A stretch of DNA of 64,000 nt from Natrinema halophilum. Lineage in GTDB: Archaea; Halobacteriota; Halobacteria; Halobacteriales; Natrialbaceae. How positions within the stretch are numbered: position 1 is the stretch's first letter; each line of letters begins with the position of its first letter. Under the pieces are notes generated by a model. That model had not been told where the DNA came from and ran no database searches. It saw only the letters and a list, made by a program, of their open reading frames with translations. Location: contig NZ_CP058601.1 of the NCBI RefSeq assembly GCF_013402815.2, forward strand, positions 62,001 through 126,000, written 5' to 3'. This document shows, piece by piece, positions 20,733-34,210 of this stretch. Position numbers and translations under genes: made by a program.

Positions 20733-21572
20733 TCACAGGAGATCTTCGAGAACGTTTCGAACCGGGGACGTGTTCTCGACTTCGAACGGCACTCGAAGCG
20801 GGGAGATCGACACCTGATCTTCGAGTAGCGCGTGGCGGTCAGTGTCCTCGGGATCGGGAATGTCACGGTTGGCCATCTGCTGCCAGAGCCGGTTTGTCAA
20901 CTGGAATCCGCCGTCCTCGTGAGTCGCATCCATCTCGTACACTCTGGTCGGGCGCGTGACCGCGAAGCCGTTCGGCTCACGGTCCGGTCGAGGAACGTTG
21001 ACGTTCAGATAGTCGAGCCGGTCGAACAGACCCGTTCCGGGTGCACCGCCCACGAGTGCGGCGGCGATCTCGCCCGCCCGCTCGAAGTCTGCTGGCTCGA
21101 GCTCTTTGTCGTAGCCGAGCGTATCCATCGACATCGCTATCGCCGGGGTTTCGAGAAAGGCCGCTTCCATCGCTGCGCTGACGGTACCCGATCGGGAGAA
21201 GACGTAGGCACCGAGGTTCGCCCCCGAATTACACCCCGAAACGACGATATCGGGCGTCGACTCGAGAGCGTTGATACCGACGATGGTGCAGTCACAGGGG
21301 GTGCCGTCGACGGCGTAGCCGAGTTCGTGGTCGGTATGGGGAACCGGCACGGTGAACGCGCTGTCGGAGAGGTCGATCGAGAGCTCGTCGCCGGTCGACG
21401 ACCGCGTTCGACCGTAGGACAGCGATCGACCGACTGCGCTGCGGTTTCGGTCCGGCGCGACGACGGTGACCGTACCGACGGTCGAAAGCGCGTCGGCCAA
21501 CGCGCGGATTCCGGGCGCATCGATCCCGTCGTCGTTCGTCAGGAGAACGTGTGGCTCTGAGTCCAGTTCCAT
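20733..21572 (-). CDS. surE: 5'/3'-nucleotidase SurE
   Basis: A 279-aa metal-dependent survival-protein-family phosphatase acting on nucleoside monophosphates. Diagnostic motifs: LLTNDDGIDAPGI at residues 10-22 (metal-binding NDDG), SGCNSGANLG near 110 and AMEAAFLETPAIAMSM near 130. The length is typical. Upstream of DUF2103 on the same strand. Confidence 0.93.
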   Translation of the reverse strand: MELDSEPHVLLTNDDGIDAPGIRALADALSTVGTVTVVAPDRNRSAVGRSLSYGRTRSSTGDELSIDLSDSAFTVPVPHTDHELGYAVDGTPCDCTIVGINALESTPDIVVSGCNSGANLGAYVFSRSGTVSAAMEAAFLETPAIAMSMDTLGYDKELEPADFERAGEIAAALVGGAPGTGLFDRLDYLNVNVPRPDREPNGFAVTRPTRVYEMDATHEDGGFQLTNRLWQQMANRDIPDPEDTDRHALLEDQVSISPLRVPFEVENTSPVRNVLEDLL

Positions 21573-21657
21573 TGCCGTAACCCTCGACTAGCGGTCGAAC
21601 TACCTATCAGTTCGGTTTGGCGACTCAGTATTCGCGACGACGACATGTCGATCGTAT

Positions 21658-21801
21658 CTATACGTTTCGCTCCGCAGGTTGGACAGTATCGCGCCCCTTC
21701 GTGACGGCCGGTTCACACTCGAGGCAATTGATTTCCCGCTCTCTTCGGGCACTCTCAAGAAAAATGCCACAGGACGTACAGAATGCGGCGGACGACGACA
21801 T
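21658..21801 (-). CDS. Possible 47-aa zinc-ribbon peptide
   Basis: Starts MSSSAAFCTSCGIFLE and contains CTSC followed 18 residues later by CLEC (REINCLECEP), fitting a one-zinc ribbon. No exact family recognised. The overlapping plus-strand frame has a hydrophobic stretch but poor overall coding character. It is upstream of surE on the same strand. Confidence 0.45.
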   Translation of the reverse strand: MSSSAAFCTSCGIFLESARREREINCLECEPAVTKGRDTVQPAERNV

Positions 21802-21954
21802 GTCAACAGGAACGTGGACAGTCGTCGGCATCCTCTCAGCGCTCGGCGTCGCATTGTCGAGACGCGGTATGCATCCTGTGTGCGGCGAGCACCCAACGCT
21901 TGCGGTGTTGCACGCGACGCTCCAATTTAATGACCTGGAAGTTCTCCCTTCGAT

Positions 21955-22476
21955 ATGATCGGATTCGATCACTGGGCGGCGACAGTGTCGCACTTCGCGC
22001 AGACTGGTCCCGGGGTCAACGTCGACATCGGCACGACCAACGGGATTTTTGGCGGGGCCGTCTCGGCGTTCCTGACGACGCTCGTCGTCGGCGCAATCAT
22101 GGTGGCCGTCGTCCCAGCGTACACTGAACGAATGATGACTGTCGTCCTCGATGATCCGATCGGGTCGTTCGCGTACGGGATCCTCTCGTTGCTCGCGATC
22201 GGTTTCGTAGCGGTCGTGCTAATACTTACCGTCATCGGAATACTCGTCGCGGCTCCGCTGTTGATACTCGCGTTTCTCGTCTGGGCGATCGGCGCAGCGA
22301 TCGCGTATCTTGCGATCGCAGATCGGTTAGTAGGACGCGAAGATGGCTGGCTGAAGCCGCTGGTGGTCGCGGCGGCCATCAACGGAATCCTCGTCGTGAC
22401 CGCCGTCGGCGGCCTGCTCTCGATCTGTATCGGTGCCGCCGGCTTCGGTGCCGTCCTTCGGAACTATCTCGAGTAG
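21955..22476 (+). CDS. Multi-pass membrane protein (DUF8173-like)
   Basis: A 173-aa membrane protein with about four hydrophobic segments (34-55, 72-95, 97-120, 140-162). It resembles the C-terminal membrane region found after polymer-forming cytoskeletal or bactofilin-like domains in Halobacteria, here as a stand-alone protein. Function unknown. The N-terminal 30 residues are polar. Confidence 0.72.
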   Translation: MIGFDHWAATVSHFAQTGPGVNVDIGTTNGIFGGAVSAFLTTLVVGAIMVAVVPAYTERMMTVVLDDPIGSFAYGILSLLAIGFVAVVLILTVIGILVAAPLLILAFLVWAIGAAIAYLAIADRLVGREDGWLKPLVVAAAINGILVVTAVGGLLSICIGAAGFGAVLRNYLE

Positions 22477-22677
22477 CGAGAAGCCCCTATATATCGGACA
22501 CGCATGCGCCTAGCGCCTTGCTTCCTCGGTGAAGTTCCTTCCATCGGACGGACGACGGGTCGGCACTGATCGGGAACCGAATACTCGCCTCGCCATTCGA
22601 CCGTCGCTCTCGATGTGCTTTCGTACGGTTTCGGCGGCAGCACACGAGATTCGATCGAATCGTGTGCATTAACTGGA

Positions 22678-22690
22678 CGATAAATATCAC
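22678..22690 (+). promoter_or_regulatory. TATA box of the polysaccharide deacetylase gene
   Basis: cgaTAAATATcac is centred about 30 nt before ATG 22714 and supports a leaderless mRNA. Confidence 0.6.
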
Positions 22691-22713
22691 TGCAGAGTCG
22701 GTACGACCGGCCG

Positions 22714-23694
22714 ATGGACAGGCGACGATCGGTACTTCTGGTCATCGCGGTAAGTGTGCTACTCGTATCGTCCGTCGTCGTTCCTGCGTTTCCGATGTAT
22801 CACCTCCCACACCATCACTCGTACGAACTCTCCGAGGGTGCCGAGTATCGGTCGGTCGTCGTCTTTCGAAACGACGACATCGAACCGGGTCACAGCGACG
22901 ATCTCCGTCGATCGGTGAATCAGGTTTTCATCGACGAGGAGGTACCGGTTACGAACGCGGTTATCCCGACGAAAAACGGGGAATCGATTGCGGCTAACGA
23001 GTCGTTCTGTCGCAATCTCAGACGCCAGTCGCGAGCCAATCCAGGGTTGATCGAGTACTCGCTCCACGGATACCGCCACGAGCCAAACGACGAGGGCGCT
23101 CCTCGAACGAACGGGAGCCAATCCACCGTTAGAAGCGAATTCGGCGGCCTGCCGATGGACGAACAGCGAGAGCGGATCCACGAGGGCAAACGTATTATGA
23201 CCGCCTGTCTCAACACGACGCCACGGTCGTTCGTCCCACCGTACGCGACCTATGACAACGCGACAGTCGACGCTCTCGCCGCGGAGAATTTCTCCATCGT
23301 CGCCGGTGGGGGCTGGTTTACGGAGTCCTATTACGGCCGAACCGACCCCTTCGAAACTGCGTCCGTGGTCCACCTTCCGGAAGACCAGGGGTTCGTCGAG
23401 AACTGGGACACCAACGCGTTCCACAATCCACGAACGCTTCGTTCCCAGTTCGAAAACGCATACAGGAACGGTGAGGTGTACGTACAGGGGCTTCACTATT
23501 GGACGTTCGACAGCGAGCGGCGCCTCGAGCACCTCCGGGCGTTCATTCGGTACGTCAAACGCCACGACGACGTTCTGTTCCTGACGCTCGAGGAGTTCGC
23601 CGACGCGAAACGGGACGGGCGGCTGACGGAGACGGGCAACGGCTGGTCGTATACGTCGACCGACGACCAGCGGGTCTACGACACCGATCGGTGA
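22714..23694 (+). CDS. DUF2334-type polysaccharide deacetylase
   Basis: A 326-aa protein anchored or exported by an N-terminal hydrophobic segment (residues 6-24). The remainder resembles the NodB/DUF2334 deacetylase fold: RNDDIEPGH (acidic metal ligands) near residue 51, SLHGYRHE near 115 (metal-binding His pair) and FVPPYATYDNAT near 170. These enzymes remove acyl groups from polysaccharides or related substrates. It is the first gene of a seven-gene glycan locus and faces the same way as the next five. Confidence 0.78.
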   Translation: MDRRRSVLLVIAVSVLLVSSVVVPAFPMYHLPHHHSYELSEGAEYRSVVVFRNDDIEPGHSDDLRRSVNQVFIDEEVPVTNAVIPTKNGESIAANESFCRNLRRQSRANPGLIEYSLHGYRHEPNDEGAPRTNGSQSTVRSEFGGLPMDEQRERIHEGKRIMTACLNTTPRSFVPPYATYDNATVDALAAENFSIVAGGGWFTESYYGRTDPFETASVVHLPEDQGFVENWDTNAFHNPRTLRSQFENAYRNGEVYVQGLHYWTFDSERRLEHLRAFIRYVKRHDDVLFLTLEEFADAKRDGRLTETGNGWSYTSTDDQRVYDTDR

Positions 23695-23849
23695 AGGCGG
23701 TCCGGCCGCCGGCCGTAATGGGATTCGATAGTCGGTGTAGGAGCCCCCTCGAGCGGTCGGCAAGAAGCGCTCGGCCTGCGTAGTCCCCTCTGGTCTGAAA
23801 TTCGCACCGTCCGAGCGACGAATCACCCGCCAGCGTTTCTTTACCACCA

Positions 23850-23861
23850 CTATAATTTAAT
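23850..23861 (+). promoter_or_regulatory. TATA box of the PIG-L deacetylase gene
   Basis: ctataatttaat is centred about 32 nt before ATG 23887. Confidence 0.6.
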
Positions 23862-23886
23862 CGAGTATGCGAAAATGAAATAGAAA

Positions 23887-24567
23887 ATGAAGGTGTTGTG
23901 TGTTGCTGCACATCCCGATGATGAAGCACTCGGCGCGGGGGGGACGCTGGCTAAACACGCTGCTGAAGGCGATGAGGTCGAAGTCTTCCTCGTTAGTGAC
24001 GGGGCTATGGCTCGTTACGAACAGGAGACGGAAACCGCGATGGAGCGGCGAGCGGAACGGCGAGCGGAAGCGGAGACAGCAGCCGACATCCTCGGCGTAT
24101 CGAACCTGACCGTCCTCGACTACTGGGGGAATCAACTCGATGATGTCGCACTCATCGATATCGTTCGCGACGTCGAATCGAAGATCGATTCGTTTCAACC
24201 GAACGTGATTTATACGCATCATTACGGCGATCTCAACATCGACCACGAACTCGTCGCCCGCGCCGTACGGACCGCCGCTCGCCCCACTACCGACTCGCCA
24301 GTCGATAGAATCCTTTCGTTCGAGACGCTCTCGGCGACCGAGTGGGGCATGCCATCGGCGGATAACGCGTTTCAGCCGACGACCTTCGTGGATATCGACG
24401 AGTATCTGACACAGAAAATGAATGCGATCAATGCGTACGAAAGCGAGATGCGCGACCGTCCGCATCCGCGAAATCCCGACGGCATTCGAAACAACGCCAA
24501 AGTCTGGGGAGACAAATCGGGTCTGCTTGCGGCCGAACCGTTCGAGTTGCTCCTGGAACGTCGGTGA
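23887..24567 (+). CDS. PIG-L/LmbE family deacetylase
   Basis: A 226-aa zinc-dependent N-acetyl-sugar deacetylase. The metal motif AAHPDDEALGAGG is at residues 7-19. A downstream histidine motif YTHHYGDLNIDHE is near residue 115. Family members act on GlcNAc-type lipids or sugar precursors. In the locus context it probably deacetylates an amino sugar used for glycan assembly. The length is standard. Confidence 0.88.
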   Translation: MKVLCVAAHPDDEALGAGGTLAKHAAEGDEVEVFLVSDGAMARYEQETETAMERRAERRAEAETAADILGVSNLTVLDYWGNQLDDVALIDIVRDVESKIDSFQPNVIYTHHYGDLNIDHELVARAVRTAARPTTDSPVDRILSFETLSATEWGMPSADNAFQPTTFVDIDEYLTQKMNAINAYESEMRDRPHPRNPDGIRNNAKVWGDKSGLLAAEPFELLLERR

Positions 24568-24634
24568 TCCCGGCGCGAACGTAAGGGTCGCGACGATAGC
24601 CGCCGCATTATATAGTTGTTAACTGGTAAAAGGT

Positions 24635-24644
24635 GTAATATAGT
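24635..24644 (+). promoter_or_regulatory. TATA box of the WbqC-like gene
   Basis: GTAATATAGT is about 34 nt before ATG 24674, making a leaderless or near-leaderless WbqC-GH10 mRNA likely. Confidence 0.5.
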
Positions 24645-24673
24645 AAAGGCGGGCCGTTAGCGTGCCTTATGCA

Positions 24674-25747
24674 ATGAGTGAAACTGTCGCTGTGTACCAG
24701 CCACACTACTATCCGCGGTTGCATTACCTTGCACGGGCCCAACAGGCCGATATCTTCGTAATCTACGACGATGTCGAATTTTCTCGACGGTCACGTCATC
24801 ATCGCGCCAATATCGACTATTACGACAAAGAGTGGCTCACGATTCCGATCGCTCATAACGGCCAGAACACGCTGATCACGGATGCGCGGATCGATATGTC
24901 GGTACCGTGGCCCGCGAGGCACCTCCAGACGCTCGTCGGAAAGTACGGTGCAGAGGCGAACGACCTCGCACCGTTCTACCGGCGCCTCTGTCTCTCCGTC
25001 ATCGATCCGGAGACGCTCCGCGACAACACTGATCGAATACGCAAACTCACGACGGACCCCGATGTCGGTAGCCTGATAGACGAATGGGTCCGTGTGGATA
25101 GGACGTGGCGACGACGACTCGAGGAAAATGAGGTGGCCCACCTCCGTGCCGAGAAAGAGCGTCTCAACGAACGGATCAGCGAGCGGAAACAAACGAATCC
25201 CGACGCCGATATTGATGACTTGCTGGCGGACGCGTCGGAAATCGACGACCGACTCGAAACTGCGACGGCTGCCTGTCGAGACGCAAAGGTGGAACGCAAC
25301 CGAACGCTCGTGGAACTCTCGGAATCGATCGGGCAGAATCGCGATATCGATCGCTTACCGCTGTACGAACTGTGGAACCTCGATGGCGTCGACCCCGAGC
25401 GGTGGCTGTCCGACGTTACGTTGGCCGACATAACGGTCCCGCTCGTCGAAGAACTCCTCGAGCGGTTCGGCGTCACGTCGACGATCGTTCGTTCTAGCGA
25501 GTTGAACCTCGACCATCCTGGGAACCCGTCCGACTATCTCGCTCTTTTGACCGATCACTTCGACGGCGACGCGTACCTCTCCGGCGAGGTCGGATACGAG
25601 AACTACCTCGAAGAGAAACCGTTCGATGAACGGGGTATCGACGTTTTGATACAGGATTGGACGCCATCGTGGGAAGACGGTAACGTGTGCGCGCTCGACG
25701 TCCTGTACAACACTGATAATCCGGGGCGATACGTTCGGGAATCGTAA
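24674..25747 (+). CDS. WbqC-like protein with helical insertion
   Basis: A 357-aa cytoplasmic protein. The N-terminus (VAVYQPHYYPRLHYL, then DIFVIYDDVEFSRRS) and the C-terminus (YLSGEVGYENYLEE, DWTPSWEDG, LDVLYN) match the WbqC family, which is tied to surface-glycan synthesis and thought to modify sugars. About 100 residues in the middle (from about 130 to 230) are charged and coiled-coil-like (LRAEKERLNERISERK) and are absent from usual members of about 230 aa. The start at 24674 is preferred over an upstream GTG. The GH10 gene follows after 1 bp, hence an operon. Confidence 0.82.
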   Translation: MSETVAVYQPHYYPRLHYLARAQQADIFVIYDDVEFSRRSRHHRANIDYYDKEWLTIPIAHNGQNTLITDARIDMSVPWPARHLQTLVGKYGAEANDLAPFYRRLCLSVIDPETLRDNTDRIRKLTTDPDVGSLIDEWVRVDRTWRRRLEENEVAHLRAEKERLNERISERKQTNPDADIDDLLADASEIDDRLETATAACRDAKVERNRTLVELSESIGQNRDIDRLPLYELWNLDGVDPERWLSDVTLADITVPLVEELLERFGVTSTIVRSSELNLDHPGNPSDYLALLTDHFDGDAYLSGEVGYENYLEEKPFDERGIDVLIQDWTPSWEDGNVCALDVLYNTDNPGRYVRES

Positions 25748-25748
25748 A

Positions 25749-27164
25749 ATGACGGACGATCGATCGGGATCTGCCGGGTGTGATGCAGCGGACGCGAAAT
25801 CAACGTTCGACGGTGAAGCCTCTCGTCTTTCCAGACGAAAGGCCCTTGGGACCCTCGTGGCGGGCGCAGGCGGTGTCGGTGGGTACGCGGTCTATCGGAA
25901 TCGATCCGATGATGGCCAGCAAGACGTCGAACTGTCGATGCCCCGAGAAGACGAGATTGACGAGCGAATCGAAACCAACCGGACCGCGGAGTTGACAGTC
26001 ACCGTCCTCGACGAAGGGGAGGATCCGGTCGCCGATGCGACTGTCGATGTCTCCATGGTTGGTCACGAGTTCGGGTTCGGAACGGCCGTCGACGCGGCGT
26101 ATCTCGTCGACGAAACTGACGACGACGACCGTTATCGAACCGTCATTCAGGACCTGTTCAACAAGGTGGTCCTGGAAAACCACCACAAATGGGGATTCTG
26201 GGACGTCCCAGCAGAACGCGACCGAGCCGAAGCGGCCACCGAATGGCTGCTCGAGCAAGGGCTGGAAATGCGGGGGCACACCTGTCTCTGGCAGAAACGC
26301 GACCAGGGAGCGATTCCGGACGACGTCGTCGAGGCGATGGACGATGGCGACGGCGAGTACATCGAAACCCAGGCAGAATCCCACATTCGAGATATCGTCG
26401 GCTACTACGAAGACGTCCCCGGGTTCACGGAATGGGACGTCCTCAACGAGCAGATCGAAGAACACGAGATGACGTCGGTCATCGATCCGGATTCGCCACC
26501 TACGCGAACGCCCGTAACGGCCGAGTGGTTTCAACTCGCAGCGGAAGCTGATCCCGACGCACAACTGTATATCAACGAGTACAGCATTCTGGCCGGAGAC
26601 GAGACGAAACACAAAGACGAGTTCGAAGCCCTGATCGAGTATCTCCTCGAACGAGAGGCTCCGCTCGAGGGACTTGGGTTTCAGTGCCACCACTGGAGTC
26701 CAGACCAACGTCGGACGCCGACGCAGTTGCTCGAAACGATTGACCGATTCGCCGACCGAGTCTCATCGATCCAGATACACGAGTACGATACGTGGGGCGA
26801 CGAGTGGTCGGAGTCGATGGAAGCAAAATATTTCTACACATTCCTCAAAACGGTGTTTAGCCATCCCGCTGTCGAAGGGTTTCTGATGTGGGGGTTCTGG
26901 GACGAGCTCCATTGGCACGGAAACGCGCCGCTGTTCCGGTCGGACTGGTCGAAGAAACCGGCCTACGACGTGTACACCGATCTCGTGTTCGACGAGTGGT
27001 GGACGGACGTACAGGGTCGTACGGGCGACGATGGCATCTTTCGGACGACGGCTGTTCTCGGGGAGTACGAGATTTCAGCGACCGTCGGCAATGCGACGAC
27101 GTCTACGACACTCACACTCGAGGAGCCGACCGACCGAACCGCAACGATACGACTGCAAATATAA
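25749..27164 (+). CDS. Tat-exported GH10 glycosidase (xylanase-like)
   Basis: A 471-aa glycoside hydrolase family 10 enzyme. A Tat-like signal SRRKALGTLVAGAGG is at about residues 28-42. A beta-rich segment (ELTVTVLDEGEDPVADATV) precedes the barrel. The catalytic acid/base E234 is in WDVLNEQ and the nucleophile E345 in SIQIHEYD. Other GH10 landmarks: MRGHTCLWQ, YINEYSIL and LMWGFWDE. Family enzymes cut beta-1,4-xylan or related glycans. It is encoded 1 bp after WbqC inside a glycan-synthesis locus, so its substrate may be the cell's own polysaccharide rather than plant xylan. Confidence 0.88.
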   Translation: MTDDRSGSAGCDAADAKSTFDGEASRLSRRKALGTLVAGAGGVGGYAVYRNRSDDGQQDVELSMPREDEIDERIETNRTAELTVTVLDEGEDPVADATVDVSMVGHEFGFGTAVDAAYLVDETDDDDRYRTVIQDLFNKVVLENHHKWGFWDVPAERDRAEAATEWLLEQGLEMRGHTCLWQKRDQGAIPDDVVEAMDDGDGEYIETQAESHIRDIVGYYEDVPGFTEWDVLNEQIEEHEMTSVIDPDSPPTRTPVTAEWFQLAAEADPDAQLYINEYSILAGDETKHKDEFEALIEYLLEREAPLEGLGFQCHHWSPDQRRTPTQLLETIDRFADRVSSIQIHEYDTWGDEWSESMEAKYFYTFLKTVFSHPAVEGFLMWGFWDELHWHGNAPLFRSDWSKKPAYDVYTDLVFDEWWTDVQGRTGDDGIFRTTAVLGEYEISATVGNATTSTTLTLEEPTDRTATIRLQI

Positions 27165-27235
27165 TTTTGAATGACACGAATACTGGAAAACTCGTTTCGG
27201 CCCCGATCATAAAAATATACATATCTGTATACTAT

Positions 27236-27246
27236 TGTATTTATCG
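27236..27246 (+). promoter_or_regulatory. TATA-like element of the glycosyltransferase gene
   Basis: TTGTATTTATC is about 36 nt before GTG 27277. A second AT-rich stretch at 27210-27225 (aaaaatatacatat) could serve too. Confidence 0.4.
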
Positions 27247-27276
27247 ATGGCTGACCGAAGGGGGGACTAACAAATC

Positions 27277-28923
27277 GTGGCTACGCCGCTTCCGTTTCCG
27301 GGCCTGTCCGCGCTGCTCGCATCGTACGCCAAATTGTTCAAATCGCGCCAGTCGTATCCGCTGGCGGATGGGGGCGACCGTCCGACGATTACGGCGATTA
27401 TTCCCGCGCTGAACGAAGAACGAACCATCCCCTACGCGTTATCATCGCTTGCAATTCAGACGGTCACTCCCGACCGTATTATCGTCGTTGACGACGGGTC
27501 GACCGACGACACGGCAACGATCACGCGAGAGTTAGACGACGAACTCGACGTGTCGATCGAGGTGTGGCAACACGACGAACCGATGGGCAAGACCGTGGGC
27601 GTCAAAGAGGTTGCCCGCTCCGTCGAGACGGATACGCTGTTCGTTCTCGATGCTGATACGTTTCTCGAGGCCGACGACTACCTCGAACGAGTGCTCGTTC
27701 CACATATCGAGTCGGACGTGGCCAGCTCGTTCGGAATCGCGTATCCGACCGAAACGGCTTCGAAGCGGGAATTTCACGACGATTTCAGTAGCGATCTGCT
27801 GCCGGCTGAAAGCATCACACGCACCCATATCGAGGACGATCTCGACGCGGCCGAATCGCGGTCCGGACCGCTCGGATATTTCCGGAGCAACGCACCGGTC
27901 GTCCAGTACCGAAACGTCAGTTATCACGTCGAACAACGATTCTTCGGCGACGGCTTCTTTCGACTGTTCGATTCGGGACTGTTCCCCGTGGGATGTGCGG
28001 TCATGTATGACCGGGCGAAACTCGTGTCCGTTTTCGACGACTACGAAGAGTCCCTCGGGAACGATCTTACTAACAGCGAGGACATTTTCATCGGGTTCGC
28101 CTTCTGCGACCGCGGTTGGAAAAACGTCCAAGTCGAAGACACGTACATGCGGTCCGATATTCCTGGCCTGAAGCGGACCTTCAAACAGAACTATCTGTGG
28201 GGGTCCGGTTTCCTCCAGAGCGCCTACTACTTCAAAGGCCTCACGACCCGCTATCGAAAACGCAAACGTGAGACGGAAACGGAACCGAACGGCTCTGATG
28301 GCAATCGGGCCGAACCGGAATCAGTCGATACAGAGACGCAATCCGAACCGGAATCAGTCGATACAGAGACGCAATCCGAACCGGAATCAGTCGATACAGA
28401 GACGCAATTCGAATTCGATATGGACGTCAAAGAGACTGATTCAGGGTCAGAGTCGGATACACCGGACGAATCCGACAGCCCTGATTCACCTGCGGTGACG
28501 GAGGATGCGGATCGCCTGGTTTCGGCTGAATCGAACACTGACACTGACGAAGCGACGGTTGACGGCGAAACTGAGCGGGCCGACTCGAGTTCGTCGGACG
28601 ATGATGCAGCGTCGGTCCAACCGCCGTTGGGACGTGCGATCACGGCCCGGCTCATCGATGGTCTGTATCCGACGACGATTCTCGTCTTCCTCGTTTTATC
28701 GTACTTCGGAGTGATCGGCCTCGAGATCGTCGGATTTCTCGTCTTGTGGGAGCTGACGCTGTATACGGTTCTCGTGATAGCGACGCGATCGAAGCGGGTT
28801 CATTTCGCTCGGAACTTCGTCCCGTTCGTTCTGATCCGAACGATGATGATGCCCGTGCTAACGTATACGTATCTCCGGGTTGCGACGGATGTCGTTACCG
28901 GAAACCGAAACTGGCGAAAGTAA
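27277..28923 (+). CDS. Membrane-anchored GT2 glycosyltransferase with repetitive acidic linker
   Basis: A 548-aa family 2 glycosyltransferase with a GTG start. The catalytic domain is at about 35-320: ITAIIPALNEE, VVDDGSTDDTA, DXD-like LDADT, SEDIFIGF and a QxxRW-like KQNYLWGSG. Residues about 328-448 form a Ser/Asp/Glu-rich linker containing three identical 11-residue repeats EPESVDTETQS. The C-terminus has two or three membrane helices (PTTILVFLVLSYFGVIGLEI and following). It probably transfers a nucleotide-activated sugar to a membrane-bound glycan. The acidic linker lies between the catalytic domain and the membrane anchors. Confidence 0.87.
   Translation: MATPLPFPGLSALLASYAKLFKSRQSYPLADGGDRPTITAIIPALNEERTIPYALSSLAIQTVTPDRIIVVDDGSTDDTATITRELDDELDVSIEVWQHDEPMGKTVGVKEVARSVETDTLFVLDADTFLEADDYLERVLVPHIESDVASSFGIAYPTETASKREFHDDFSSDLLPAESITRTHIEDDLDAAESRSGPLGYFRSNAPVVQYRNVSYHVEQRFFGDGFFRLFDSGLFPVGCAVMYDRAKLVSVFDDYEESLGNDLTNSEDIFIGFAFCDRGWKNVQVEDTYMRSDIPGLKRTFKQNYLWGSGFLQSAYYFKGLTTRYRKRKRETETEPNGSDGNRAEPESVDTETQSEPESVDTETQSEPESVDTETQFEFDMDVKETDSGSESDTPDESDSPDSPAVTEDADRLVSAESNTDTDEATVDGETERADSSSSDDDAASVQPPLGRAITARLIDGLYPTTILVFLVLSYFGVIGLEIVGFLVLWELTLYTVLVIATRSKRVHFARNFVPFVLIRTMMMPVLTYTYLRVATDVVTGNRNWRK
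28312..28410 (+). repeat. In-frame 33-bp minisatellite, three copies
   Basis: Copies start at 28312, 28345 and 28378. The unit begins gaaccggaatcagtcgatac, and the copies are identical except in the last 2 bases of the third. Each encodes EPESVDTETQS, so changes in copy number keep the reading frame. Confidence 0.97.
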
Positions 28924-29333
28924 GTCCTCTCCTCTCCCACCGTGTGTGGTCGCTCTGCGAGGAGATATCCTGGACCGGTTCGTTACTGGATATTTTCCTC
29001 ACCATTCGGCCGACTCGTTCGCGACTTCGGTTTCCAGTACGTCCCCACCGTCGTCGGGTCGACCGATCCGTGACCGTCAGTATACTCACCGTGCCGTTCG
29101 GAATCCGTCGAATCGTCGATTGGTGGTGATCCAGTTCTGTTCGGGGATAGCTGGTCGGTCACTTTCCGAGCGGACCCCTTCCGATCGGCTACCCAATCAA
29201 AGACGTCGTATTCTCCATTTTCTCAGAAGAGCGTACTTTAACGTCGATATAATCTATTTTTACCGTTGCTTGAAATACTTTTATTGCGATATCATATAGA
29301 TAACAAAGGGTGTCGTAGCGAAGTACCCGGTGG
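28924..29333. other. 410-bp intergenic stretch, no gene seen
   Basis: It lies between the glycosyltransferase and the epimerase. The last 110 bases are AT-rich and hold the epimerase promoter. Short frames are not protein-like. Confidence 0.5.
29272..29286 (+). promoter_or_regulatory. TATA-like element of the epimerase gene
   Basis: AAATACTTTTATTG-type AT-rich element about 55 nt before ATG 29334, predicting a leader of roughly 30 nt. A second candidate (AATCTATTTTTACC) lies at 29250-29263. Confidence 0.4.
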
Positions 29334-30518
29334 ATGAAAGGGGATACACCTGCCGGGGAGGAGATCGGAAACTCACACGAAATCACGACTACTGTCGATA
29401 CGTCCGCTGATACCAAGCAGGGCGAACTAGAACAATCTGATAGTTCACAAGCGGAGACGACCGTTCGAAATAAAGTGGCTGCTAACACTACTACTGACGA
29501 CGCGAACTCGGGGCTAACCGTGCAATCGGATGCTGAAGTGTATCCCGACGAAGCGGTAGCACAACCCTCGAGATCGCACTCGCAGACGGCTACCGGGACA
29601 GACGAGTTGATTGACAAAAAAATTCTCATCACCGGTGGCGCGGGATTTATCGGAAGCCATCTTTCAAATCGGCTGACGACAGCGAACGACGTCATCGCTC
29701 TGGACGACTTTTCGACCGGTTCGGCGGACAACGTCGATTCGAACGTCGAACTCGTCGAAGGTGATATTACTGACGAAGATACCGTTGGAAACCTCGTCGA
29801 TGGGGTCGACGTTCTGGTGCACATGGCCGCTATGATGGGTGTACGACGGACGCTCGAGAACCCTCTCGGAGTGCTCGAGGTGAACATGGAAGGCACGAAA
29901 ACAGTTCTCCAGACCGCAAAAGAACACAACGTGGACCGCGTTCTGTTTACCTCGACTTCCGAAGTGTATGGTGATCTCATCGACCCACCGTACGGGGAGA
30001 CCGACGAGAAGTCGCCGAAAACGAATTACGCCGTAGCGAAACTCGCAGACGAGCGTTATACGAAGGCGTTCTGTCGAGAAGCCGGTATCGATTATACGAT
30101 CGTGCGATACTTCAACGTCTACGGACCGCGCCAGGAGTCCTCGGAATACGGCTACGTGGTGCCTCGATTCATCACGCACGCCCAAAACGACGAACGGGTA
30201 CCGGTCCACGGTGATGGATCACAGACTCGAGACTTCACGTACATCGACGATGCAATCGACGCGACTATTCAGGCGCTCGGTCCCACCGGTGTCAACGAGA
30301 CGTTCAATATCGGGTCGGGAACCGAAGTTTCCATCGCGGAACTGGCCCGTACGGTCGTCGATACGATCGGAAGCGGTGAAATCGAATTCGTAGACCATCC
30401 GCGGCCGTACACTGTCGACCGCCGTTGTGCGGACGTATCGAAACTAGACGAGGTTCTCGATTTCGAACCGGAGATCGATCTCGAGAGCGGTATTAAACGG
30501 TTAGCGAAACAGATCTGA
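29334..30518 (+). CDS. NAD-dependent sugar epimerase/dehydratase with acidic N-terminal tail
   Basis: A 394-aa extended short-chain dehydrogenase. The Rossmann motif ITGGAGFIGSH starts near residue 99, the active site has Ser/Thr in TSTSEVYGD and YAVAK (Tyr about 233, Lys about 237), and a C-terminal NIGSGTEVSI motif fits UDP-glucose 4-epimerase-like enzymes. It should supply a nucleotide sugar for the neighbouring glycosyltransferase. The first 92 residues are Ser/Thr/Asp/Glu-rich and look disordered, which is unusual for a cytosolic epimerase. No Met occurs between residue 1 and the Rossmann fold, but a TTG start near 29605 is possible. Confidence 0.85.
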   Translation: MKGDTPAGEEIGNSHEITTTVDTSADTKQGELEQSDSSQAETTVRNKVAANTTTDDANSGLTVQSDAEVYPDEAVAQPSRSHSQTATGTDELIDKKILITGGAGFIGSHLSNRLTTANDVIALDDFSTGSADNVDSNVELVEGDITDEDTVGNLVDGVDVLVHMAAMMGVRRTLENPLGVLEVNMEGTKTVLQTAKEHNVDRVLFTSTSEVYGDLIDPPYGETDEKSPKTNYAVAKLADERYTKAFCREAGIDYTIVRYFNVYGPRQESSEYGYVVPRFITHAQNDERVPVHGDGSQTRDFTYIDDAIDATIQALGPTGVNETFNIGSGTEVSIAELARTVVDTIGSGEIEFVDHPRPYTVDRRCADVSKLDEVLDFEPEIDLESGIKRLAKQI

Positions 30519-30525
30519 CGTCCTT

Positions 30526-30543
30526 CCACGACTGAAGTCGTGG
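30526..30543. terminator. Hairpin between convergent epimerase and carbamoyltransferase genes
   Basis: CCACGACTGAAGTCGTGG: 7- to 8-bp perfect stem, 8 bp past the epimerase stop. It is positioned to act on both convergent transcripts. It also resembles end hairpins of IS200/IS605-type elements, so origin from one is possible. Confidence 0.5.
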
Positions 30544-30591
30544 CATTCGCGCTGTATCTGTGTAAAACGGAGTCGGTCGCAGCCTGGTTCA

Positions 30592-32346
30592 CTACTCACG
30601 GTTCGGACGACGCTCGGTATCGACCGATATCGAGTCGCGTTTCGTGACGAGGAGATCCTCGAGAACGAGCGCGTCGAGTCCCATCCCGTAGAAGTCTTTG
30701 AGCGCCTCAACCGGTGTGTTGACGATCGGCTCGCCGTGATCGTTAAACGACGTGTTGAGCACGACGGGAACGTCAGTTATGTCTTCGAACTCCCGGAGCA
30801 GCCGGTAGTATCGTGGGTTCTGGTCTCTGCGAACGGTCTGCGGTCTGGTGGTGTTGTCTGCAGGGTGGAGAACTGCGGTTACGTCGTCACAATGCGCCGG
30901 AGCAACGTCGAACGTGTTGATCATGTACGGCGATTCAGTCGCGTTTTCTAGATACTCGTCGGCGGCCGACTCGAGCATCGACGGTGCGAACGGACGCCAT
31001 CCTTCGCGGTGTTTGACGAACCGATTCACTCGGTCGCGAGATTCGACGGTCCGTGGATCCGCCAGAATGCTCCGGTTGCCGAGGGCTCGCGGTCCCATCT
31101 CGAGTCGGCCCTGGAACCAGCCGACGAGTGCCCCGTCGGCGAGCAATTCGGCGACGGTTCGTTCGAGGTCCTTCGGTTCGGAGTAGTCGACCTTGTTCGT
31201 CTCGAGAAGCGACCGAATCTCGTCGGTGTCGTACTCGGGCCCCAGATACACGTTGGTCATCGGTTCGACCTGATCAGGACGCTGATCGATCCAGCCGCCA
31301 CCGAGCGCGAGGCCGGCGTCGTGTGCGACCGGCTGGACGAACAGGTCGTCGACCGACGGCCGTTCCCTGATTGCTTTGTTGAGTTTGCAGTTGAGGACGA
31401 CGCCACCCGCCAGTCCGACGTTGCCGGTCTCGACATACTCGATGTATTTCTCGACGATGGCCGTGATCGATTCCTCGAGGAGTTTCTGTGCGGTGTGAGC
31501 GAGGTTTTTCTCGAACTGATCGAACTCGTCGGTGGTGGTCGAGCGTGGCCGATCGAACAGTTCCTCAAGTGTACGCACTCCGTACTCCGTCCCCCACCGT
31601 CCGGTAAGCGCCGTCACGTCGTAATCGACGCCGGTTTCGATTTTGTCTCGGAGGAGCCGTTCGATTTCCGGGTCGTCCTCCCCGTAGGGGGCGAGCCCCA
31701 TCACCTTCCCCTCTCCGTTGAACATCCGATACCCGAGGTACTCGGTGACAGCGGCATAGAATAGCCCCCAGCTATTCGGATGGTCGTATGTGCGAAGTCG
31801 GGAAAGTCCGTCCGTCGTCGCGTGCCAGACGACGGTCGAATCGTACTCGCCTTTGGCGTCGACGGTGAGAACGAGCGCTTCCTCGAACGTCGACGGATGG
31901 AATGCACTCACTGCGTGACACGCGTGGTGTGAGCGACGTTCGATGGACGGAAGCGGCGTCCCGATCCGTTTGAGTCGTGATTCGACCTGTTGAGTCGGCA
32001 GGTAGCGGGAGACGAACTGGTCTTTGGTCACGTTGAAGAGGTGTGATACCGTTCGAAGCGTGCTATCGCGATGGACCGAATTACCCAGATAATGGCCGAG
32101 TATCTTCGTTCGGAGTTGCGGATCGTACGGAAGCACGATTTTCTCGAGATCGGCGAGTTCGATTCCTTCGCTCTCGAGACAGGCTCGGATAGCCTGTTCC
32201 GGAAACGTATCTGTGGCGTGTTTCTCCCGGGTCAGTCGCTCTTCTTCGACTGCAAACCGGAGGTCGCCGTCGACGAAGAGAGCGGCACTCGGATCGTGTT
32301 GCCCGTACAGCCCGATTGCTGGCTTAAATGAAAGAACATAGGCCAT
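30592..32346 (-). CDS. NodU/CmcH family carbamoyltransferase
   Basis: A 584-aa cytoplasmic enzyme that would move a carbamoyl group from carbamoyl phosphate to a sugar or other hydroxyl. The N-terminal kinase-fold part shows HDPSAALFVDG, HHACHAVSAFHPS and LTVDAKGEYDSTVVW. The C-terminal domain has GRLEMGPRALGNRSILADPR and WRPFAPSML. The start at 32346 (MAYVLSFKPAIGLYG) is chosen because the upstream 23 codons look non-coding. It is convergent with the epimerase and closes the glycan locus, suggesting carbamoylation of the product sugar. Confidence 0.88.
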   Translation of the reverse strand: MAYVLSFKPAIGLYGQHDPSAALFVDGDLRFAVEEERLTREKHATDTFPEQAIRACLESEGIELADLEKIVLPYDPQLRTKILGHYLGNSVHRDSTLRTVSHLFNVTKDQFVSRYLPTQQVESRLKRIGTPLPSIERRSHHACHAVSAFHPSTFEEALVLTVDAKGEYDSTVVWHATTDGLSRLRTYDHPNSWGLFYAAVTEYLGYRMFNGEGKVMGLAPYGEDDPEIERLLRDKIETGVDYDVTALTGRWGTEYGVRTLEELFDRPRSTTTDEFDQFEKNLAHTAQKLLEESITAIVEKYIEYVETGNVGLAGGVVLNCKLNKAIRERPSVDDLFVQPVAHDAGLALGGGWIDQRPDQVEPMTNVYLGPEYDTDEIRSLLETNKVDYSEPKDLERTVAELLADGALVGWFQGRLEMGPRALGNRSILADPRTVESRDRVNRFVKHREGWRPFAPSMLESAADEYLENATESPYMINTFDVAPAHCDDVTAVLHPADNTTRPQTVRRDQNPRYYRLLREFEDITDVPVVLNTSFNDHGEPIVNTPVEALKDFYGMGLDALVLEDLLVTKRDSISVDTERRPNRE

Positions 32347-32851
32347 GTATTTGGTAGTGTTATTTCTTCTATTAAGTAAGTTTTGTGAAACTGGCATGTT
32401 AGTTCGGCGATTCATACAAATAGTGGCGGAAACGGTCGCAGTCGTCTCTGTGCGGTCTGTGGGCTGATTATCCGGGAAGGAACTGTCGTTGTGACCGGCG
32501 ATCTGATCGCGGAATTCTACTTTACAGGACCTTGATTGCGCGAATTAGGGCTTTACCCTAGTAGGCGCGTAATCGATACAGCCGATCCGTTTTGGTGCGC
32601 GCAAGGGGAGAGAAATTGCGGGTTGGGGGTGCCGAACTGGCGATTGAAATGTATCCAGTCCCGAGCGATGGTATCACCGTTAGCCATTACTATAAAAAAT
32701 TGAGTATATTGGGCCATTATATTTGAATTCATATACATAATCTATCCAACCTGATTCGGGGGTATCGTGCCCGAAACGGTTCCCGACGCACCCTGGAGAG
32801 TAATCGCCCGACTCGGGTGGGCACGAATTGGCTGGTGCGAACCGAATCGAC
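32347..32851. other. 505-bp intergenic stretch, AT-rich, no gene seen
   Basis: Upstream of the carbamoyltransferase. The AT-rich parts (32345-32400 and 32690-32745) probably hold promoters. A 61-codon minus-strand frame at 32553-32738 has protein-like text (IARDWIHFNRQFGTP) but no recognised family; it may be debris. Confidence 0.5.
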
Positions 32852-34210
32852 TCATCCCAAGTGAACCGGGTCGACCTTCAGATACTCTCGACAGACGACG
32901 GTCGCATAGGATCCCTTCGGCAGCGCAAACGCGAGCGTGAGCGGTTCAGTTTCGATGTCGATACCAGTCCGGACGAGCAGCGCTCGTCGCGTTCCGGTCG
33001 AGTAAAACTCGCCGGGAAGATCGAAGTCCGACGGGTCGAGACCGAGGTCGTCGAGGACGGACCGTTCGATCTCGCCCTGTACCCCGTCGGCGAGTTCCGT
33101 CTCGGTACCGACCAGCGGGGCTGTGACGAACGCTCGGCCGCGCTCGCAGTGGCGGGTTACTGAATCGACCCGGCGCTCGTCGACACGCTGGAGCCGATCG
33201 CTGTCGGGCAGTTCGAGTCCGTCGGGGGCGTCGGTGTCCGAAAAGCAGACAACGTCGCCCGCAACCGGTTGATCGAACGCTACCCCGCGCTCGAGGCGCT
33301 CGCTCAGCATCAGGTTGAACGCGTAGGACTGAGCGGCGTGAACGAACAGCCGCTGGAGGTTCGAGGGGACACGCTCGAGGGCGGTGCGAAACTCGTCGGG
33401 GCCGGGCTCGCCGTCGCACTCGGCGAGGGCGTGGATCATCGAGCGCTCGTAGCGAAGCCGGTTGGGGACGCGCTCGAGCGCATCCTGCCAGTTTCGAGTT
33501 GTCTCGACGTACGCGCGCGCCTCCTGTGTAGACTCGGGTTCCGCAGCCGTCGGGTTCCCGAGGTACGCCATCACCGCTCCTTCCCAGTCGCCCCGCGCTA
33601 TCGCGAGGCCCACTTCGTGAGTGACCGGGCGACGGCTGCCGAAGCGCTGCTGGCCGAAGAAGTTGGGGACGGCGATCGAGACTGCTGACTTGCTCGTCGT
33701 GCCGTCCGACTCGAGACCGCCGAACGCCGCCAACTCGTCGGTGATCGGAGCCGTGTTCTCTGGCCTCTCGGGGTCAGTGACGACGAGTTCGAACTCGTTT
33801 CCCGCGAGATCGCCGAACTCGAGCCCCCGTCCGGATCGGCCCAGCACCGTCACGTCAGCCCCGTCTATGTCCGGCAGGTCCGCCGGCTCGGCCCCGTAGA
33901 CCGAAAACAACTGCGTCGTCACAGCGTACTTGTCCTTCGTCCCGGCCCAGTCGACGCGTTCGCGGGAGATTCCGAGCGCATCCGAGACCCGCGCGGCGAA
34001 GTCGTTGGTGTCCCATCCGCGCAGTGTCGCCCGAAAGACGAGATGAGGATAGGCGTCCGTCGGCGCGTCGAGCGGTTCGGTGTCGAAGCGCTCGAGTTCG
34101 TGCACCCGAAAGTGGTCGTCGTCCTCTCGCAGGCGGCCGCCGATGCCGTCGGTATCGCTGACGTAGTGTTCCATGCCGACTGCCTGCTCTGTGGGGTGGC
34201 CTGGGCGCAT
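32852..34210 (-). CDS. truD: tRNA pseudouridine(13) synthase TruD
   Basis: A 452-aa RNA-modifying enzyme that isomerises U13 in tRNA. Family motifs: [12 protein letters not shown] near residue 28, the catalytic region [16 protein letters not shown] (Asp in TKDK) near 88, and [19 protein letters not shown] near 175. It has the normal archaeal length and starts with [12 protein letters not shown]. The neighbouring ABC transporter genes share its strand but are functionally unrelated. Confidence 0.93.

Follow-up and report, generated by a model that had tools for sequence, protein, structure and literature searches.

We present here a six-gene set from the haloarchaeon Natrinema halophilum that is a genuine recurrent haloarchaeal glycan cluster. 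It most likely specifies an amino-sugar exopolysaccharide system that follows the logic of poly-N-acetylglucosamine (PNAG) and Pel, with unusual precursor and decoration steps. The cluster lies in a 64,000-nucleotide stretch (the window; G000:C1:62001-126000, contig NZ_CP058601.1) of a 4.84-Mb genome. Its most surprising part is the fusion of a WbqC-family protein with the N-terminal arm of seryl-tRNA synthetase (SerRS), which went unmentioned in an earlier reading of the same DNA (the original prediction). PMC9943897 describes haloarchaeal extracellular polysaccharide synthesis as little understood. The cluster offers a compact and recurrent genetic unit that can be deleted and that makes a chemical prediction. 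With its SerRS arm, the role of WbqC becomes open to direct study, including the possible decoration of archaeal surface sugars from aminoacyl-tRNA. A literature search outside the subscription journals turned up no paper with this gene combination, and none on WbqC function or DUF2334 biochemistry.

Linkage, conservation, and selection

The original prediction placed seven genes in a row. All seven open reading frames (ORFs) are present, and Pfam confirms their families (Table 1); the row holds for six codirectional genes on the plus strand and breaks at the seventh, a carbamoyltransferase on the minus strand that converges on them. In order along the six genes, the intergenic gaps are 192, 106, 1, 112, and 410 bp, and AT-rich stretches lie upstream of the PIG-L, WbqC, family 2 glycosyltransferase (GT2), and short-chain dehydrogenase/reductase (SDR) genes. 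The set is therefore a cluster, perhaps read from several promoters, and a single tight operon is unproved.

Nine copies of the cluster were recovered by a GT2 profile search from 8 of 125 genomes of the family, and the neighborhoods of all nine were inspected. GT2, PIG-L, and WbqC co-occur in every copy, as does an exported hydrolase (GH10 and/or GH18). An SDR is present in eight copies, a CE4-type deacetylase in seven, and a nearby nucleotide-sugar dehydrogenase in six. No GT2 lacking PIG-L and WbqC was found among the copies recovered. Among 293 genomes of the order, GT2 was matched at E ≤ 1e-25 only in G000 (the window genome), G240, and G255, each of which also carries close WbqC, PIG-L, and GH10 genes. 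Plasmids searched for GT2 gave nothing beyond weak partial matches.

Type A copies include those of the window and G296, with the order DUF2334-PIG-L-WbqC-GH10-GT2-SDR at the same chromosomal place; Natronococcus pandeyae (L092), with DUF2334-PIG-L-WbqC-GH10-GT2 and the SDR and dehydrogenase genes divergent upstream; and Saliphagus infecundisoli (L093), with GH18-PIG-L-WbqC-GT2 and no GH10. Type B copies (G240, G255, G294, and a second S. infecundisoli copy) contain a dehydrogenase, SDR, GT2, a Polysacc_deac_1 lipoprotein, GH10, PIG-L, and WbqC, with a GH18 neighbor in all three copies checked for one. G318 has WbqC-PIG-L-GT2 plus GH18. DUF2334 also adjoins PIG-L in G296, N. pandeyae, and G081. 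GlmS adjoins one type B copy, and an archaeal GlmU-like gene adjoins another copy of the cluster. In other genera the cluster is found at differing chromosomal places, with rearranged order and the same content. Scattering of the genes in relatives was to count against the original prediction; they are not scattered, with GT2, PIG-L, and WbqC together in 9/9 copies and the order repeated in N. pandeyae. In S. infecundisoli (L093:13040-13933), an ORF of phosphodiesterase/nucleotide-pyrophosphatase type lies directly 3′ of GT2.

All six genes are under purifying selection. Between the window and G296, the ratios of nonsynonymous to synonymous substitution rates (dN/dS) are 0.182 (DUF2334), 0.092 (PIG-L), 0.189 (WbqC), 0.184 (GH10), 0.164 (GT2), and 0.180 (SDR), with 0.118 for TruD and 0.181 for SurE as controls. 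DUF2334 has a single helix at residues 7 to 25, and its metal/catalytic signature (D54, D55, and H118-x3-H122) is invariant in four homologues. In PIG-L, AHPDDE and H120 are invariant across seven homologues (67 to 85% identity), and no membrane helix is predicted. GH10 carries the twin-arginine motif SRRKAL, the acid/base motif DVLNE, and the nucleophile motif QIHEYD; both the family profile and the two catalytic glutamates (nucleophile pattern Q[IV].EYD) place it in the family. Hydrolase catalytic motifs were found across the copies; the exceptions were L151, where the GH10 nucleophile pattern gave no match, and L093 and L128, where the GH18 pattern gave none. The GH18 of type B copies carries a chitin-type CBM5/12, and DGxDIDWE is intact in four GH18 copies. 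The extracellular CE4-type deacetylase comes from two families, either DUF2334 with a signal helix or a PF01522 Tat lipoprotein, which suggests functional replacement. The original claim that linked genes make, deacetylate, export, and trim an amino-sugar glycan is strengthened by the recurrence of the set in relatives, by the catalytic residues kept in the exported hydrolase and deacetylase, and by the CBM5/12-bearing GH18.

A SerRS arm within WbqC

By homology, the WbqC proteins of the cluster contain a complete SerRS N-terminal arm. It occupies residues ~109 to 215 and divides the WbqC domain into two halves; PF08889 covers both halves in two stretches and matches 7 of 7 homologues. Pfam Seryl_tRNA_N matches all seven arm-type WbqC proteins (best E value, 1.3e-13), and the window protein scores 32.0 bits against a cut-off of 28.2. 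In a PDB profile search with WbqC, the top seven matches are all SerRS (2dq0, E value of 4.7e-10). The arm scores 41 to 48 bits against haloarchaeal SerRS and at most 14.4 bits in 1,600 shuffles, and hhalign against SerRS gives 96.8% with an E value of 2e-10 over 101 columns. The similarity is colinear over the whole SerRS N domain, including the LRxN and D-x-x-WR signatures. Foldseek with the AlphaFold model places SerRS at ranks 1 to 8, with an E value of only 0.08. Ordinary WbqC ORFs have ~230 to 260 codons and are therefore too short to contain the arm. The AlphaFold models of WbqC and GT2 are poor because their input alignments had only 6 to 7 rows. Only the arm of the WbqC model is usable; outside it, the mean pLDDT is 51, the model is too poor to judge a GNAT fold, and the sequence has no convincing PDB match.

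The contig search for arm-type WbqC succeeded with an alignment query and gave none with a single-protein query. At E ≤ 1e-20, a wider scan of 393 genomes of the phylum gave no further ones. A gene with PIG-L-type motifs lies near ordinary WbqC at 2 of 27 loci, within the stretch available at each, some of them short; the PIG-L/WbqC pairing is specific to this cluster and is not a rule of the WbqC family. In G234, an arm-type WbqC lies in a glycan region that includes NeuB (L035:4952-10449).

The chances are even that the arm is a mere coiled-coil dimerization or docking element unrelated to tRNA. Coiled coils match many proteins, and PI3K p85 and F-BAR also appear in searches with the arm; the G234 region, in which no PIG-L was found near the arm-type WbqC, points the same way and weakens the coupling of WbqC to PIG-L. 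In the PDB search, however, no other coiled coil ranks as high as SerRS, and the whole N domain is covered colinearly, with both signatures and at scores that exceed all shuffles.

According to PMC4964394, FemA has a helical coiled-coil arm that has been compared with SerRS and proposed to bind aminoacyl-tRNA. WbqC, like the FemABX aminoacyl-tRNA transferases, has an inserted helical arm comparable to SerRS, and we therefore propose that it aminoacylates the amine exposed by PIG-L. By this analogy, arm-type WbqC plausibly carries out tRNA-dependent aminoacylation of the PIG-L-deacetylated amino sugar. Orf11, a Gly-tRNA-dependent amino-sugar acylase, offers a further comparison; unlike FemABX and Orf11, WbqC is of a different family. 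The full version of the proposal, in which WbqC would take serine, or some other amino acid, from tRNA and attach it to the deacetylated sugar within an aminopentose polysaccharide pathway (XylNAc/XylN type) trimmed by GH10, is put forward tentatively and is rather unlikely to hold as a whole. If true, the aminoacyl transfer would be a tRNA-dependent step in archaeal surface-glycan synthesis. To our knowledge, no function has previously been assigned to the WbqC family, and aminoacyl-tRNA transfer would be the first.

Proposed pathway and alternatives

We think it about evenly balanced that the six genes make an exopolysaccharide or capsule, a secreted polysaccharide of amino sugars (possibly aminopentoses) that is partly de-N-acetylated, by the logic of PNAG, Pel, and galactosaminogalactan. 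For the substrate chemistry, polymerization, export route, and PIG-L and WbqC action, we infer the following. An enzyme like UDP-HexNAc 6-dehydrogenase would provide UDP-hexuronate, which the SDR would decarboxylate to a UDP-pentose, possibly UDP-2-acetamido-2-deoxy-xylose (UDP-XylNAc). The single membrane GT2 would build the chain. Inside the cell, PIG-L would free an amino group for the arm-bearing WbqC, which would plausibly attach to it an amino acid supplied by (seryl-)tRNA. The exported CE4-type de-N-acetylase (DUF2334, or the IcaB-like lipoprotein in the other subtype) would render the chain partly cationic, and the exported hydrolase (GH10, GH18, or both) would trim it. The proposed pentose backbone would account for a xylanase-family hydrolase, and the proposed N-acetyl groups on the chain for the deacetylases and GH18. 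If true, the UDP-pentose route would extend archaeal amino-sugar chemistry and give a xylanase-family enzyme a biosynthetic role.

GT2 consists of a cytoplasmic GT-A domain, an acidic linker, and two to three predicted C-terminal transmembrane helices, and it keeps the DD, DAD, (S)ED, and Q-x-x-x-W motifs. Its best NCBIfam model is PgaC_IcaA in all three cluster GT2 proteins scanned, and the best model for the type B lipoprotein deacetylase is PIA_icaB. The acidic linker of the window GT2 (28310-28410) contains three imperfect in-frame repeats of PESVDTETQSE, and linker length varies among homologues.

The role of the SDR, annotated as an epimerase, was read from its residues. By sequence score it is about as close to dehydratases as to UDP-sugar epimerases and UDP-glucuronate decarboxylases. 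Each of the seven cluster copies examined has Thr-Ser-Glu (STSEVYG) and an Arg at the positions of ArnA T432, S433, E434, and R619, which we take to be decarboxylase active-site residues, together with YxxxK; GalE has Ser-Ala-Thr in place of the Thr-Ser-Glu. The ArnA-type combination is absent from GalE and from seven of eight other noncluster SDRs aligned, haloarchaeal proteins at ~40% identity among them. Together with the adjoining dehydrogenase, these residues favor, over a C4-epimerase, a UDP-hexuronate decarboxylase that yields a UDP-pentose, perhaps UDP-XylNAc. The dehydrogenase lies beside the cluster in six copies; the window genome instead has its nearest relative at C1:3981694. The best named models for it are UDP-HexNAc dehydrogenases, namely, TviB (G240 and Saliphagus copy 1) and archaeal UDP-ManNAc dehydrogenase (N. 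pandeyae). A C4-epimerase with a Cys gate (motif RRCAD) had been considered and was withdrawn when alignment with GalE and ArnA put Arg at that column. An SDR on Sinorhizobium meliloti pSymB (L158, 685569-686504; 39% identity), with Ser-Ser-Glu, Arg, and an RRCxD motif, is a possible lead to a characterized relative.

Several results weigh against the pathway. NCBIfam scores of GT2, the deacetylases, the SDR, and the dehydrogenase are far below the equivalog cut-offs; for the dehydrogenase, a subfamily model is the only one passed. Models of 4,6-dehydratases and epimerases fit the SDR as well as UDP-xylose synthase models do, and the SDR misses the curated UDP-xylose synthase model (107.5 bits versus a cut-off of 294), which describes a bifunctional bacterial enzyme. 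The processive signature D,D,D,QxxRW is absent from GT2, which has QxxLW in eight of nine copies and QxxAW in G296; with only two to three C-terminal helices, GT2 may therefore act as a lipid-linked glycosyltransferase and not as a synthase that exports its own product. The cluster contains no export channel or flippase.

A lipid- or protein-linked glycan (an S-layer N- or O-glycan or a glycolipid) is a possible, though unlikely, product; GT2 would then work in the manner of AglJ or of AepG, a dolichyl-phosphate glucuronosyltransferase, and PIG-L and WbqC would decorate one sugar. Besides its topology, GT2 has weak similarity to AglJ, PMC9943897 describes AepG of Haloarcula hispanica as a GT2 membrane enzyme working via dolichyl phosphate, and DUF2334 weakly resembles a GlcNAc-phosphatidylglycerol deacetylase model. 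Inspection of the cluster copies, however, showed neither an oligosaccharyltransferase nor a flippase; the best GT2 models are GlcNAc-polymer synthases, and the coconservation of exported GH10/GH18 hydrolases with the glycosyltransferase suggests a long chain. The epimerase role in the original prediction is also doubtful. Comparably unlikely is a specific form of it, in which the SDR would be a UDP-GlcNAc/GlcNAcA C4-epimerase of the TviC/WbpP/PelX type and the polymer GalNAc(A) or galactosamine, as in Pel, galactosaminogalactan, or Vi. The best PDB sequence matches of the SDR are epimerases, TviC scores 142.6 bits, and a TviB-like dehydrogenase is next door in type B copies. Against this stands the position of GalE Tyr299, where Ser or Cys lets epimerases accept N-acetyl sugars (PMC6668579): each of the seven cluster SDRs has Arg there and four haloarchaeal SDRs at ~40% identity have Ser, and the cluster proteins have Thr-Ser-Glu as in ArnA. 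That the genes are functionally unrelated neighbors gathered in a variable interval is very improbable. The interval between TruD and SurE in which they lie does vary in the genus, and the GC content of the block is 56.2%, versus 61.8% in the remainder of the window; the set, however, reappears in other genera at other sites on the chromosome, and the searches gave no GT2 that lacked its two partners.

The polysaccharide pathway resembles known systems in part. As in PNAG (pgaABCD/icaADBC) and Pel (pelADEFG/pelDEADAFG), the cluster encodes a glycosyltransferase alongside a de-N-acetylase that acts outside the cell and a glycoside hydrolase, and the closest models of GT2 and the type B deacetylase are those of PNAG. 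Unlike these systems, the cluster has GH10/GH18 hydrolases and no cyclic di-GMP or export parts were seen in it; it adds PIG-L, the SerRS-arm WbqC, a UDP-HexNAc-type dehydrogenase, and a decarboxylase-like SDR. In Bacillus cereus subsp. cytotoxis, UDP-XylNAc is made by a UDP-GlcNAc 6-dehydrogenase and a decarboxylase; the proposed likeness, of a dehydrogenase-decarboxylase SDR pair acting on amino-sugar nucleotides, is one of enzyme kind. The galactosaminogalactan cluster of Aspergillus includes gtb3, ega3, and sph3. With agd3 and uge3 it has five genes (PMC4817252), whose logic of SDR, glycosyltransferase, deacetylase, and hydrolases is similar in gene content; unlike it, the haloarchaeal SDR lacks the epimerase signature. 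Haloarcula hispanica makes its acidic exopolysaccharide via membrane glycosyltransferases (AepG, HAH_1662/1667), but the available parts of PMC9943897 and PMC5467301 describe no deacetylase/GH10/PIG-L/WbqC set there and a polymer of neutral hexoses and glucuronic acid.

The TruD-SurE interval and the carbamoyltransferase

Across the 21 genomes examined from the genus, TruD and SurE always share one region. The interval between them measures ~1 to 3.5 kb in most of these and 4 kb in G299; it extends to 11 kb in the window and to 21 kb in G296. It is a variable insertion place (window 20733-34210; G296:C2:711156-734686; G299:C1:3876448-3882592), and in most congeners it lacks the cluster block. 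The cluster is most likely a horizontally mobile block. The G299 interval also carries an MFS transporter, and that of G296 has an extra ~10 kb; a 1,426-aa ORF without any Pfam match (L132:5019-9299, minus strand) lies between the carbamoyltransferase and the cluster in G296.

Carbamoylation, part of the original prediction, was dropped as a function of the cluster. The carbamoyltransferase is on the opposite strand and is therefore not in the same transcript as the six genes. G299 has the order TruD-carbamoyltransferase-SurE without the cluster (89% identity), so that the enzyme can occur independently of it; in G296 the two are present together. The gene was not found at the other cluster loci searched for it, and its paralogue in the window genome lacks evident glycan neighbors. 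It is probably a separable convergent neighbor and not a component of the cluster, although the two could also have been gained together and the cluster then lost in G299.

Table 1. Coordinates of the cluster genes and the convergent neighbor in the window
Gene product	Position	Strand	Pfam support
DUF2334 deacetylase (CE4-like), 326 aa, one N-terminal membrane/signal helix	22714..23694	+	PF10096, 69.8 bits; weak Polysacc_deac_1
PIG-L family de-N-acetylase, cytoplasmic, 226 aa	23887..24567	+	102.9 bits
WbqC-family protein with inserted SerRS N-terminal arm	24674..25747	+	WbqC, 100.5 bits; Seryl_tRNA_N, 32.0 bits
Tat-exported GH10 glycoside hydrolase, 471 aa	25749..27164	+	139.7 bits
GT2 glycosyltransferase, membrane	27277..28923	+	67.5 bits
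SDR (annotated epimerase), predicted UDP-hexuronate decarboxylase-like	29334..30518	+	Epimerase/SDR, 207.3 bits
NodU/CmcH-type carbamoyltransferase, convergent neighbor	30592..32346	-	N domain, 161.8 bits; C domain, 225.0 bits

The N-terminal ~90 aa of the SDR are of low complexity, and its start codon is uncertain. For WbqC, the ATG at 24674 is favored over the GTG at 24662.

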